The notes: generated from the letters alone by a model not told the origin. Positions 17,870 to 22,483 are shown, numbered from the stretch's first letter. The stretch: 55,564 nt of DNA from a bacterium (GCA_016290135.1 JAEESW010000001.1:1-55564); one strand, 5' to 3'. Numbers and translations are program-made.

Positions 17870-18673
17870 TCACGGCCGGTATTTCAGGGCTGCTATCGCT
17901 AAAACAGCCGTTATTCCTGTCACAAAGATGATCCTTCTGTAGATATTCTGCCTGAACTTTTTCCCGAAAAAGAAGCCGGTGCTTAGAACAATCAGCGATG
18001 AAAGAGGGAGGATGACTGCGATCTTCTGAGGACTTAGCAGGAATCCTGCAGCAGAAAGGATCATGAAAAATGCCGACAGCGCACATGTCTTTCCAAGTCC
18101 CTGAGCGTTTTTTCTCCCCGCGAGGATGTCCCCTTCAGTGTCTGAGAGATCTTTCAGAGCCGTGACTCCCAGAACATGGAGCAGAAGGCTCGCCGAACAC
18201 GGCAGAAAACTCTTTCCTCCTGCAACGATCATGGGGTAGGCGATCCCCGAACCTGTGACGAAACACGCAAGGAGCCCTCTTTTTTTAAGGACGAAAGGAG
18301 GCAGAGAATAGAAGACGCCGAAGACAAGAATTAAAAAAACGAAGATCTTTTCCGGACCTTCAAAAAGGACTACCGTGCCGAAAAGTGAGCCGAAAGTCAG
18401 AAACAGCAGCCACAAGACGGCGTCCCGCCTTGAGATCACGCCGCTCGGAAGAGGCCGCCACGGCTTGTTTGCCGAATCTTCGACGACATCGGTTATCGAG
18501 TTCAGCGTGTAGACGAAATTGTAGGGAAAAAGCGAGACAAAAAGCGACTGGACCAGAAAAAGCAGTGAGAAATCATCTTTTCCGAGGAATCTCCCCGCAA
18601 AAAAGGCAAGGAATGAGAGCAGAAGGACATCTGCCCGGTAAAGCCTGAAAAGTGCGGGAAGTTTGTGAAACAT
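17870..18673 (-). CDS. UbiA-family prenyltransferase
   Basis: A 267-residue polytopic membrane protein with about eight hydrophobic segments and both UbiA Asp-rich motifs: NSITDVVEDSANKPWRPLPSG (D62, D66) and DLSDTEGD near residue 175. Such enzymes join an isoprenyl chain to an aromatic ring, as in quinone, heme or glycolipid synthesis. The substrate is not predictable here; 4-hydroxybenzoate-type and decaprenyl-phosphoribose-type relatives are both possible. It starts three bases after the subtilase stop and has no clear ribosome-binding site, so coupling with that gene is likely. Confidence 0.88.
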   Translation of the reverse strand: MFHKLPALFRLYRADVLLLSFLAFFAGRFLGKDDFSLLFLVQSLFVSLFPYNFVYTLNSITDVVEDSANKPWRPLPSGVISRRDAVLWLLFLTFGSLFGTVVLFEGPEKIFVFLILVFGVFYSLPPFVLKKRGLLACFVTGSGIAYPMIVAGGKSFLPCSASLLLHVLGVTALKDLSDTEGDILAGRKNAQGLGKTCALSAFFMILSAAGFLLSPQKIAVILPLSSLIVLSTGFFFGKKFRQNIYRRIIFVTGITAVLAIAALKYRP

Positions 18674-18676
18674 GGA

Positions 18677-20626
18677 TTAAATCATGGTAAGAGCACAGCC
18701 GGAATCTTTGCGCGGTTTCGGAGAATGGCCGCTCTGTCCGTCGGAATCGTCTGTCTGAGCTTCCTCTTCGCCGTCGTGACAGCCGGATTTGTCCCAGCCC
18801 ATGCAGTCGGCAGCGCATGTCGCAGTCCCGTTTTGAGGAGCGCCCGCGATCTGATTGCAAGGCATGGTGTCTCCGTCACAGATCTCGTTTGCATCGACAG
18901 TTCCGTTTCCGCAGAGAGGAGAACCCGGAGTGCCTGTCGGATCGCTTGTCGGGTCGGTGCCGGGATCCGGATTTATCGGATCTGACTGGTTGATGTCGCC
19001 GCCGCATTCGATGCCGGAAACATCCGTTCCTGCCAGTTCGAAAGCTCTTTTGAGGGCTTTGCACGCATTGATCCTGCCGTAGCCGTAATTCTGGTTGAAG
19101 CCGTTCCCGTCGTATGAGTCGAATCCGATCTTGTCGGAAGTCTCTTTGTAAAGTTCGTAGATCTGATCTTTCGTGAGTGCCGGATTGGCCGTGAGGACAA
19201 GTCCCGTGATGCCGGCTGCAAGCGGACATGCCGAGGAAGTTCCGCCGAAATCGCTCGAGTAGTTGCCTGCGAGATCTCCGGCGCTTTCATTACCGCCTGC
19301 ATTGTAGCCTGCCTGGCCCATGTTGTCGGTCGTCCAGATCCCGTCGATGGTCGAGCCGCCGGCCCAGCCGTCTCCGCCCGAAGAATCCATGTCGCAGCTT
19401 GAAGCCATGAAGTCGAGCGAGTTTCCGAAATCGGAGTAGGAGGCCCTGTTGCCTGCCGCGTTGCTTGCGCCTATCGCGAAAACGTTCGGGTTGCTTGCGT
19501 AGCCGTCAGTCTCGATGCTCTCGCCTCCGTTGCCTGCTGCGAAGAAGATAAGTGTCCCGAGCCCGTTCCTGCCGGTCGTGGCGATGTTTGCCACAAGATC
19601 CTTCAAAGTCTGGTTCATGTCTACGAACTGGCCTGTGCCGTCGGCAGGGCCCCAGCTGTTCGAAATTATGTCTGCTTCAGCGTTTGCCGCCCATTCAAAA
19701 GCCTCGATAGCCGAAGCGTCGAGCGAAGTTATCCCGCTCATTCTCATTCTTATCGGGATGATCTGGCAGTTCGGGCATGCACCTGCGATGCCGATCCCGT
19801 TGTCGGTCGAACCGCCTGCTACTCCTACGACGCAGGTCCCGTGCATATCCTGCCTTCCCGGATCAGGCGCGTCGTCACCGTCAGCGAAATCGTGTCCGGG
19901 GAGGAAACGGTTCTGCAGATCTTCGTGGAAAGTGTCGAAACCGTCGTCGATGATGGCGAGTCTGACTGTCGAGCCGCCGAGTTCGCCTTTAAGTTTGCGC
20001 ATGACATCCCACGCTTCTGCGACGTGAGTGCTGTCGGAGCCGGTGACATTCGGGTTCGTCCCGTCGTTGTAAAGATGCCACTGATTTGAGAAGAGCGGAT
20101 CGTTCGGGAGGTATGTCCTCTTTTCGAAATTCATGAAAAAGCTCGGTTCTGCCTGAAGAGCGGTCTTCTGTTCGACAAGTTCGACCGATTTTTTGACCGG
20201 ATCGCCGTCTGTTTCGGCAAGATACCAGTCGGGAGCGTACTGAAACTTCTTCACAAGGCGCATTCCGTTCGATCTGAACCATTTTTCGATGTCACTGACA
20301 CCGCTGATCTTTACGAAGACCATGCCGCTCGCGAAAACTTTTTCGCTGTCGTTTCTCTTGTATGCGGGAAGCAGAGTTCCTTTTTTCGAGAGTTCTCTGA
20401 TGTTTTCAGGGCTGAGTTTGTTGAAAAGATAGATGTTTTCGTGTCTCAGCGTGAATTTGAGGTCTTTCGGCAGGGCGTTGACATTCCTTGCTGCCGAGCT
20501 GTCTATGAAAGTGTAGCCCGAAGTTTCGGACAGAGTGATCTTCCTGCCGTTTGAATAGTAATAAAGGCCTTCGGCAAACATGAAGACCGGAAGCAGAACG
20601 ATCAGAAGCAGCGTGATTTTTTTCAT
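18677..20626 (-). CDS. Secreted subtilisin-like serine peptidase with C-terminal SGCALTMI tail
   Basis: A 649-residue S8 peptidase. It has a signal peptide (cut after about FMFAEG) with no lipobox, then a probable propeptide to about 170. The catalytic triad is D227 (AIIDDGFD), H262 (DMHGTCVVG) and S464 (GGTSSACPLAAG), with oxyanion N356 (FAAGNGG). A Pro/Thr/Asp linker (about 550-575) leads to a cysteine-rich CGNGTVDANEICDG module of a kind common in Myxococcota-like exoproteins. A polar, acid-rich stretch and the final residues DSGCALTMI follow. The almost identical end on the upstream gene suggests a shared C-terminal anchor. It is the second gene of a three-gene reverse operon. Confidence 0.95.
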   Translation of the reverse strand: MKKITLLLIVLLPVFMFAEGLYYYSNGRKITLSETSGYTFIDSSAARNVNALPKDLKFTLRHENIYLFNKLSPENIRELSKKGTLLPAYKRNDSEKVFASGMVFVKISGVSDIEKWFRSNGMRLVKKFQYAPDWYLAETDGDPVKKSVELVEQKTALQAEPSFFMNFEKRTYLPNDPLFSNQWHLYNDGTNPNVTGSDSTHVAEAWDVMRKLKGELGGSTVRLAIIDDGFDTFHEDLQNRFLPGHDFADGDDAPDPGRQDMHGTCVVGVAGGSTDNGIGIAGACPNCQIIPIRMRMSGITSLDASAIEAFEWAANAEADIISNSWGPADGTGQFVDMNQTLKDLVANIATTGRNGLGTLIFFAAGNGGESIETDGYASNPNVFAIGASNAAGNRASYSDFGNSLDFMASSCDMDSSGGDGWAGGSTIDGIWTTDNMGQAGYNAGGNESAGDLAGNYSSDFGGTSSACPLAAGITGLVLTANPALTKDQIYELYKETSDKIGFDSYDGNGFNQNYGYGRINACKALKRAFELAGTDVSGIECGGDINQSDPINPDPGTDPTSDPTGTPGSPLCGNGTVDANEICDGDTMPCNQIAGAPQNGTATCAADCMGWDKSGCHDGEEEAQTDDSDGQSGHSPKPRKDSGCALTMI

Positions 20627-20653
20627 TTATAGTCTCCTTTTAAGGTTTGTAAG

Positions 20654-22483
20654 TTAAATAATCGTCAGAGCACAGCCGGAATCGTCATCGTCCTCTTCCT
20701 CATTTTCGCTGTGTTCATCTGTTTTTTCAGCGTCATCGTCTGAAGTGTCCGCGCTGTCGGAAGGCTCTTCAGTATCGGTCTTGTCATCCTCTGACGGTGC
20801 CGGATCATCGGGAACTTCCTTGCTGCCGTCGCAGGTCATGCTCTCTTTCGTGTAGAACTGAGCCTTTACCGCGGCATCGTCAAGAGCCTCGCACGTAGCG
20901 GCAAAAGTCGCTCTGACGGGAAGCCCCTGATTTGTTTTGTAAGCAGATTCCTCGCCGGTTTTTGAATCCCAGATGAGAGCCGTGTTTGAGAACGAAGCGT
21001 TTTTCGGCGAATCTTCGGGCATTTTAACGAGAAAACGCATGAGGATCCTGTCGCAGTTCGATTCGCTCTGGCAGATCTCCATTTTGTCTGCGACCATTAT
21101 GCCGGAACTGAGCGGGAAACCGCCGTTGTCAGGATAGTCTTCAAAGCATTTCCCGGTGCCTGAATAGTCGATCTGGAAAGTGCCCGGAATGTAGTTCAGG
21201 CGGTCTTTAAGAGTGTCGCTGACCATGACGAACTCAGCCGGTTCCTGACCGTGGTTCTCAACTACGATCTGGTACCCGAAAGCGGTGTTCTGGCACACTT
21301 TGTTGTCCTGACCGGTCGTCGTGAGAAGGAATTTTTCGTTCTTCTCAGGAATATCGAACGCAGGAAGACGCGTGTCGACCGAAAGGATGACATAGTTCGT
21401 AAGGACGATATCGGCGCCTGTTTTTATGTAGAAGTTCATGGAATTCGTTCCGTACTGGACATGCGGATTTATTATGCTGTCTGCCATATTTTCATCGTAT
21501 TGCAGGAAGAATGTGTCGACATCGAACGAAAGCTCTTCGCGGCAGTCTGAAACCTCTCCCTTGTGATTTACAGTCCTGAACTTGCTGTTGAACGGCTGGT
21601 TGAGCGGATTGCACGATCCGTCGGCATCACCGAGAACAAGTGCCTGCGGAGCAAGCCCGCCCTGGACTTCCAGAGACTCAGGCGCAGATTTGACATCATC
21701 ACCGTCAGCCGTAACGAAGGAGACCTTGACGGCCGCCTTTTCGGGAAGCTCAAAGTTGGCGATATTTATGGTGGTCGGCTTTAAATTGGTGTTCGAGCTC
21801 CACGTCAGGCCGTTGTAAAGATAGAGTCTTTTGCGGGCGATCTGCGAAGAACCGTAGATAAGAATGAGCTGCCAGCCGCCTATCATGCTTGCCATCTGGC
21901 AGTAGTTGTGATTTGTGCCGCTCTGTGCGCAGTCGTAGATGTCGTCAACGCCGCTCACTTTGTATTCTCCGGCCAGCGATTTTACCTCGCCGTTGTCGCG
22001 GTCGTACTGGAAATCGGCGATGATGTCGGTGACATCGACCCTGTAAACATAATAGTAGTAGCCTTTCGAGTAGTAGGATTCAAACTCAAAACCCTGAGGA
22101 GAAGCCGAATTCCCCTGGAGCGAAGCTGTGACGACATGGTCTTCGCCGTCAGGAGTCATAAGGGTGACCTGGTTGTCCGTGAACGTCATCGAATCGGCAT
22201 CGTTCACCGAAGCGAACCAGACAAGAAACGCCTGTTCAATGGCGGCGTCTTTCGGGATATCGGTCTCGAGAAGGAAATCGCTTGCACCCTGAACGCCTAT
22301 CGAAGTGTCTCCCTGCGGCTCGTAGGAGGAATAGGATCCTGTGTTCGCAAGGAGCGATTTGGAAAGAATAAAGTAGTCGTAAGCGCCTTCATACTCGAAA
22401 GTCGGGATATTGCTTATGGGAATCGCACCTAGCGAAAATACGCACAACATACTGAAAACAAGAGTCAAAAAATAGCGTTTCAT
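20654..22483 (-). CDS. Secreted protein with DUF11-like domain and C-terminal SGCALTII tail
   Basis: A 609-residue exported protein. The signal peptide is MKRYFLTLVFSMLCVFSLGA, with no lipobox. Residues 25-390 are a beta-rich region with tyrosine-rich segments (YYSKGYYYYVYRVDVTDI). About 395-540 resembles a DUF11/conserved-repeat domain (GYQIVVENHGQEPAEFVMVSD, then LNYIPGTF). A strongly acidic linker (about 560-600) precedes the last residues DDDSGCALTII. It is first in the operon with the subtilase, which ends in nearly the same motif, so it may be a surface partner or a substrate of the peptidase. GGGAGG lies eight bases before the start. Confidence 0.88.
   Translation of the reverse strand: MKRYFLTLVFSMLCVFSLGAIPISNIPTFEYEGAYDYFILSKSLLANTGSYSSYEPQGDTSIGVQGASDFLLETDIPKDAAIEQAFLVWFASVNDADSMTFTDNQVTLMTPDGEDHVVTASLQGNSASPQGFEFESYYSKGYYYYVYRVDVTDIIADFQYDRDNGEVKSLAGEYKVSGVDDIYDCAQSGTNHNYCQMASMIGGWQLILIYGSSQIARKRLYLYNGLTWSSNTNLKPTTINIANFELPEKAAVKVSFVTADGDDVKSAPESLEVQGGLAPQALVLGDADGSCNPLNQPFNSKFRTVNHKGEVSDCREELSFDVDTFFLQYDENMADSIINPHVQYGTNSMNFYIKTGADIVLTNYVILSVDTRLPAFDIPEKNEKFLLTTTGQDNKVCQNTAFGYQIVVENHGQEPAEFVMVSDTLKDRLNYIPGTFQIDYSGTGKCFEDYPDNGGFPLSSGIMVADKMEICQSESNCDRILMRFLVKMPEDSPKNASFSNTALIWDSKTGEESAYKTNQGLPVRATFAATCEALDDAAVKAQFYTKESMTCDGSKEVPDDPAPSEDDKTDTEEPSDSADTSDDDAEKTDEHSENEEEDDDDSGCALTII

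Follow-up and report, generated by a model that had tools for sequence, protein, structure and literature searches.

The shared ending of two adjacent exported proteins

The locus described here raises the question of whether the short cysteine-containing ending shared by two neighboring secreted proteins, a subtilase and a protein designated P2, serves as a C-terminal anchor. The window, i.e., the whole stretch of 55,564 nucleotides that was analyzed, most likely originates from a bacterium of the UBP6 group, an uncultured group that includes ruminant gut microbes. Four records carrying this subtilase come from ruminant guts, and the sources of congeneric genomes include goat, yak and buffalo gut assemblies. 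The common ending SGCALT(M/I)I reported in the first-pass annotation was found in frame at the end of both genes [Table 1], and both proteins harbor, as proposed there, Sec-like signal peptides devoid of a lipobox. The accompanying description of a polar, mostly acidic linker held for P2; the linker of the subtilase is polar as well, but basic immediately upstream of the tail (KPRKDSG). The annotated lack of a membrane helix and Arg-rich end was confirmed, in that translation stops five residues past the cysteine and inspection of all frames of the DNA downstream of both genes revealed no concealed membrane helix followed by a basic end, the stops being real. Neither protein matched the curated model TIGR03901. 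The exact motif SGC-A-L-T-phi-phi-stop occurred at these two sites only in the 2.47 Mb genome, against 0 control matches. Counterparts of the subtilase in congeneric genomes also end in a GC tail, with Ile as the final residue, and orthologues of P2 are present throughout the UBP6 order.

Table 1 Positions of the features discussed in the text.
Feature	Sequence	Position	Strand	Remarks
UbiA-family prenyltransferase	window	17870..18673	(-)	PF01040, E=3.2e-17
Subtilase, exported, 649 aa	window	18677..20626	(-)	ORF; PF00082, E=1.2e-41; Sec signal peptide, S8 domain, Cys-rich segment, polar linker, short Cys tail
Subtilase C-terminal tail, DSGCALTMI-stop	window	18677..18706	(-)	Cys codon 18695-18697
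P2, exported, 609 aa	window	20654..22483	(-)	DUF11-like segment, acidic linker, short Cys tail
P2 C-terminal tail, DSGCALTII-stop	window	20654..20683	(-)	Cys codon 20672-20674
Mini-proteins, 62-64 aa	L231	9400-9588
	L307
DNA repeat of ~30 bp	L134	452-475, 2225-2248, 3266-3289
	L135	919-942
	L138	1594, 2379
	L143	3711-3734
	L150	6096-6119

Abundance and taxonomic range of the tails

The distribution of such endings was assessed with a strict in-frame DNA pattern, GC[S/T/A]-hydrophobic-x-hydrophobic-hydrophobic-stop, with the reversed pattern as a control. The window's genome yielded 23 matches versus 0 for the reversed pattern, and the 25 genomes of the UBP6 order 316 versus 4, so that tail-ended exported proteins, which the first-pass annotation had suggested looking for in related genomes, were indeed found there. 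No excess was apparent in 36 other genomes, three of which belong to another family of the same phylum (19 matches versus 20 reversed), nor with a looser pattern placed out of frame, which served as a null (12 versus 19). Likewise, 116 genomes from the class of G055, a genome whose protease is a true MrtX, gave 39 matches versus 42 reversed, which speaks against a spread of the short tails to myxobacteria. A world-wide scan with D-S/T-GC-[AS]-L/F-T-phi-phi-stop returned eight matches, five of which were subtilases of the UBP6 group; the other three lay in frames of only 7-51 residues and were dismissed as chance occurrences. Given that the excess is seen in the UBP6 order and absent from the comparison sets, the genomes examined show the short tail to be specific to that order.

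Proteins carrying the tail

Tails were listed by pattern search supplemented with selected genome stretches. The window's genome encodes 21 full-length tail ORFs falling into nine families: six subtilases, six members of a Cys-rich family of ~290 aa, two metallophosphoesterases, a pair of proteins without Pfam match, and one each of P2, a collagen-like protein, an amidase with a golvesin domain, a peptidase C25 (gingipain-type) and an M4-like protease. All 21 carry a signal peptide, in each case of the Sec type, versus 113 of 296 background proteins (p=5e-9). Lipobox matches were depleted, with 56 among the 113 signal-peptide proteins in a ~390 kb sample of this genome versus two among the 21 tail proteins (p=6e-4); both of the latter regular-expression matches sit within the mature chain, and in none of the 21 does the signal peptide end in a lipobox. 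The linkers preceding the tails are of low complexity, rich in Asp, Glu and Ser and poor in hydrophobic residues, Asp and Glu accounting for 33% of linker residues compared to 15% in other exported proteins. Among the strict matches examined in two genomes from other families of the order, a signal peptide together with such a linker was present in 8 of 11 (G019) and 8 of 8 (G023), for a total of 16 signal peptides in 19 proteins, the remaining ones being truncated or stray. The smallest carriers in these two genomes, of 64 and 101 aa, have hardly anything beyond a signal peptide, a linker and a tail. Judging from these predicted features, the subtilase and P2 belong to a genome-wide system of about 20 exported tail proteins per genome drawn from unrelated families.

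Mini-proteins of 62-64 aa consisting of a signal peptide, an acidic linker and a Cys tail ending in GCALTLL were also observed [Table 1]; they are potential tiny surface lipopeptides. Separately, a DNA repeat of ~30 bp, AAATCCGACGGCTGYTCGATGCTGTTTRTCTAA, which encodes KSDGCSMLFV/I-stop, is found at the 3′ end of genes of the Cys-rich tail family [Table 1]. Further copies immediately follow unrelated lipoprotein genes, past their stop codons, and another is joined to a RibD gene. The repeat is possibly a recombination scar or a cassette-like element. Contig C44 of the window's genome (L070, L071) encodes lipoproteins with long (DTA)n-type linkers, together with clusters of exported proteins ending in WSSS...VRCVR, an ending that presumably resembles the Fibrobacter paralogous FISUMP domain.

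Conservation of the tail and its helix-bearing counterparts

Gly and Cys are present in all 21 tails of the window's genome, both being set by the search pattern, and are followed in all 21 by Ser or Ala. The residues beyond are mainly hydrophobic or Thr, the final one being I, F, M, L or V, and the last two are nearly always hydrophobic. Orthologues of P2 were collected by whole-protein similarity, the tail not being a criterion, and the cysteine was conserved in 20 of the 20 with a readable end, at 4-8 residues from the C-terminus. Because these orthologues were chosen regardless of their tail, this conservation attests independently to selection acting on the protein. Loss of the tail from most homologues, named in the first-pass annotation as an outcome that would speak against an anchor, was thus not what we observed. 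While the P2 linker diverges freely, changes within the tail are conservative (SGCALTLI, AGCALIFI, KACTILII, TACACTIIF, NGCGCSLVM).

Genomes of the UBP6 order also encode, on separate proteins, tripartite MYXO-CTERM-like tails made of Gly-Cys, a membrane helix and Lys/Arg, the best of which, on a protein from f3, scored 18.1 bits on TIGR03901, against a cut-off of 20. The two forms interchange. Tandem paralogues on contig C25 end in a long tail (TGCSMTEADDDHG-helix-RR) and a short tail (SGCSLTIL), respectively, and are alignable through GCS[ML]T; the short-tail member stops two residues past this motif whereas the other runs into the helix and RR. The resemblance of SGC to the start of MYXO-CTERM signals noted in the first-pass annotation is upheld. 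Among relatives of P2 of ~1000 aa, a helix tail is usual (f1, f3), but a G019 member of 1035 aa ends in KDGCSTLFID. In addition, tandem P2-like proteins at L031 (G005, contig C35) end in SSGCSVLTLDQDFRM, which is intermediate in form, having no helix but more residues past the cysteine.

Short tails from f3 display GCGC (DGCGCSVVW, TGCGCTLLF), a signature described as generic for MYXO-CTERM (PMC11980579). With the MYXO-CTERM (TIGR03901)/MrtX, MrtC, MrtP systems described in that work (PMC11980579), the short tails share an invariant cysteine in a GC/GCGC signature, a polar linker and Sec-exported enzymes and adhesins as carriers, tens of them per genome, in genomes that also encode a myxosortase-core CPBP protease and a type II secretin. 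They differ in their hydrophobic ending five residues after the cysteine, in a host belonging to the UBP6 order rather than to Myxococcota, where long helix-bearing tails coexist with them, and in a protease that forms a divergent subfamily scoring under the curated cut-off. As they lack the helix and the basic end, both of which TIGR03901 requires, the short tails are not MYXO-CTERM by definition. The short, undescribed cysteine anchor put forward in the first-pass annotation fits all the data; however, given that long tails coexist and interchange with the short ones and that a myxosortase-family protease is present, it is better called a TM-less variant of this known class of signals than an unrelated new anchor. 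JDVT-CTERM/MrtJ and Synerg-CTERM/MrtS offer a further likeness in their Cys-containing C-terminal signals and related CPBP proteases. Unlike the short UBP6 tails, the JDVT-CTERM and Synerg-CTERM signals have a helix and a basic end.

The short signature is very like the start of the long form, and the subtilase and UbiA share one frame across a single stop codon; the short tails might accordingly be decayed MYXO-CTERM signals, either nonsense or frameshift remnants free of selection or forms whose helix is supplied by readthrough. Against this, the Gly-Cys plus hydrophobics form is retained in different genera and by nine protein families, and most of the helices encoded downstream in other frames belong to the signal peptide of the following gene. 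Inspection of the downstream frames revealed no convincing concealed frameshift or readthrough helix behind the tails, and we consider this already disfavored explanation highly improbable.

Hydrophobic C-termini are typical PDZ ligands. The nearly invariable hydrophobicity of the last two residues, and the presence of the secretin GspD (found along with PilQ), could accordingly mean that the tail is a recognition tag, bound by the type II apparatus or by a periplasmic protease of the PDZ or Tsp-like type, the cysteine being incidental. This is unlikely in light of the constancy of Gly and Cys in the pattern-selected tails and of Cys in the unselected P2 orthologues, of the variation among hydrophobics after the cysteine, and of the homologues in which the same cysteine is followed by a membrane helix, a pattern that a role as PDZ ligand leaves unaccounted for. 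A flexible linker ending in a single terminal cysteine would also be sterically suited to tethering the protein without lipid, through a disulfide bond to another copy or to a partner at the surface, and some tail proteins are Cys-rich. Such a disulfide would leave both the conserved hydrophobics and the swap with helix tails unexplained, and the ruminant guts from which several congeneric genomes originate are largely anoxic and poor for disulfides, making this tether very unlikely.

Candidate machinery

A myxosortase-core CPBP protease is encoded in 24 of the 25 genomes of the UBP6 order, one copy each, and is the only CPBP protease in the window's genome, where it lies on contig C22 (L176, 1468-2109), and in nearly all genomes of its family. 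It scored 48.3 bits on PF02517 (cut-off, 22.4), and alignment with MrtX of G055 showed its catalytic EE..R, H and H..N residues to be conserved, with small indels common to the order. Its best curated matches were MrtP, MrtC and Mrt_core, with 78-87 bits on Mrt_core NF040914 across the order, under the cut-off of 100, and ~60-71 bits on the MrtJ and MrtS profiles, also under their cut-offs. Searches of the PDB returned no match to the protease, whether by the fold of its good AlphaFold model (pLDDT 88.7) or by sequence. Co-occurrence of the tails with a myxosortase-like gene, suggested as a check in the first-pass annotation, was thus seen across the order, but the related family f4, whose protease scored 93-104 bits, showed neither short nor long tails in the ~147 kb sampled, so the protease alone is no predictor of short tails.

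Lgt-family proteins gave 4-7 matches in all genomes of the order except the least complete f3 genome; only one of the copies in the window's genome exceeds the curated Lgt cut-off. At the Lgt loci inspected in four genomes (L264-L281; G000, the window's genome, and G007, G020 and G026), one class in G007 has an LspA-like gene as its neighbor. In f4, a tandem pair of Lgt genes lies beside two LspA-like genes; in some f3 genomes, one Lgt copy is within a frame of ~1250 residues. The paralogues may serve ordinary lipoproteins or other chemistry.

At the locus itself, UbiA begins immediately after the subtilase stop codon (TAA-TCC-ATG) and in the same frame, the two genes being translationally coupled. 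This arrangement is found in all congeneric genomes with the pair, the UbiA start lying 3 nt past, or directly at, the subtilase stop and always in the same frame (window 18665-18690; L244-L258). No obvious Shine-Dalgarno sequence is visible at the UbiA start; the gene layout suggests that UbiA may be translated by termination-reinitiation (or readthrough). This coupling, the recall of a CaaX box by an ending of Cys and hydrophobics, and the occurrence of a single UbiA gene in 23 of the order's 24 genomes that were searched, with none detected in the three f4 genomes, would all suit prenylation of the tail cysteine, with a prenyl group synthesized or transferred by the UbiA-family enzyme. To our knowledge, however, UbiA enzymes prenylate small lipophilic acceptors and not thiols; UbiA does not adjoin tail genes outside this genus, which rules against it as a general tail modifier; and the order/f4 split amounts to a single event. 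Prenylation of the tail is quite unlikely, and the case for UbiA as part of the anchoring machinery is weak.

A probable helix-less sorting signal

Rather than prenylation, we favor, as a fairly probable reading, a role for the tail in C-terminal sorting and anchoring, as a short signal of the MYXO-CTERM type that has lost the helix and basic end, is lipidated at its Cys and is handled by a myxosortase pathway. The cysteine is probably the site of lipid attachment; lipidation, cleavage, surface location and the identities of the enzymes are all inferred here from sequence. Once a tail protein has been exported by Sec, its cysteine would acquire a lipid on the periplasmic side; one of the several Lgt-family paralogues may be the enzyme responsible. 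Either the hydrophobic residues would next be cut off by the myxosortase, as Rce1 trims the CaaX box, or the tail would stay on. The type II secretion system would take the protein to the surface, where the lipid would keep the enzyme or adhesin in place.

Two established systems invite comparison. The tails resemble the CaaX box processed by Rce1 in eukaryotes and archaea in ending with a cysteine and a few mostly aliphatic residues and in the presence of a CPBP/Rce1-family protease. They differ in extending five rather than three residues past the cysteine and in being borne by exported proteins, and no protein prenyltransferase was identified. With the N-terminal lipobox (Lgt/LspA) they share the logic of a lipid anchor, a cysteine adjoining an acidic linker and, in UBP6, an expanded Lgt family; unlike in lipoproteins, the UBP6 cysteine is at the opposite terminus, without lipobox and apart from the signal peptide. 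A tentative, more specific proposal is a helix-free lipidation route in which a CaaX-like cysteine plus five residues would be recognized in the periplasm; a dedicated Lgt-family paralogue would attach the lipid and the divergent myxosortase would trim the tail. If true, this route would link MYXO-CTERM to CaaX processing.

The LPXTG, PEP-CTERM, PGF-CTERM, GlyGly-CTERM and MYXO-CTERM signals are all tripartite, with a hydrophobic membrane segment (PMC11980579), and the titles and abstracts found on UBP6 and on C-terminal Cys lipidation make no mention of such tails. Were a natural helix-less form in wide use, this would demonstrate that the cysteine signature can suffice by itself. Which enzyme modifies the cysteine, and whether the modification precedes or depends on cleavage, are questions left open for MYXO-CTERM (PMC11980579); the UBP6 genomes offer candidates for the modifying enzyme, and a helix-less form would render the question testable, the tandem long/short pairs and family-level swaps providing ready natural experiments. 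Finally, surface display would benefit from an anchor tag of seven residues.
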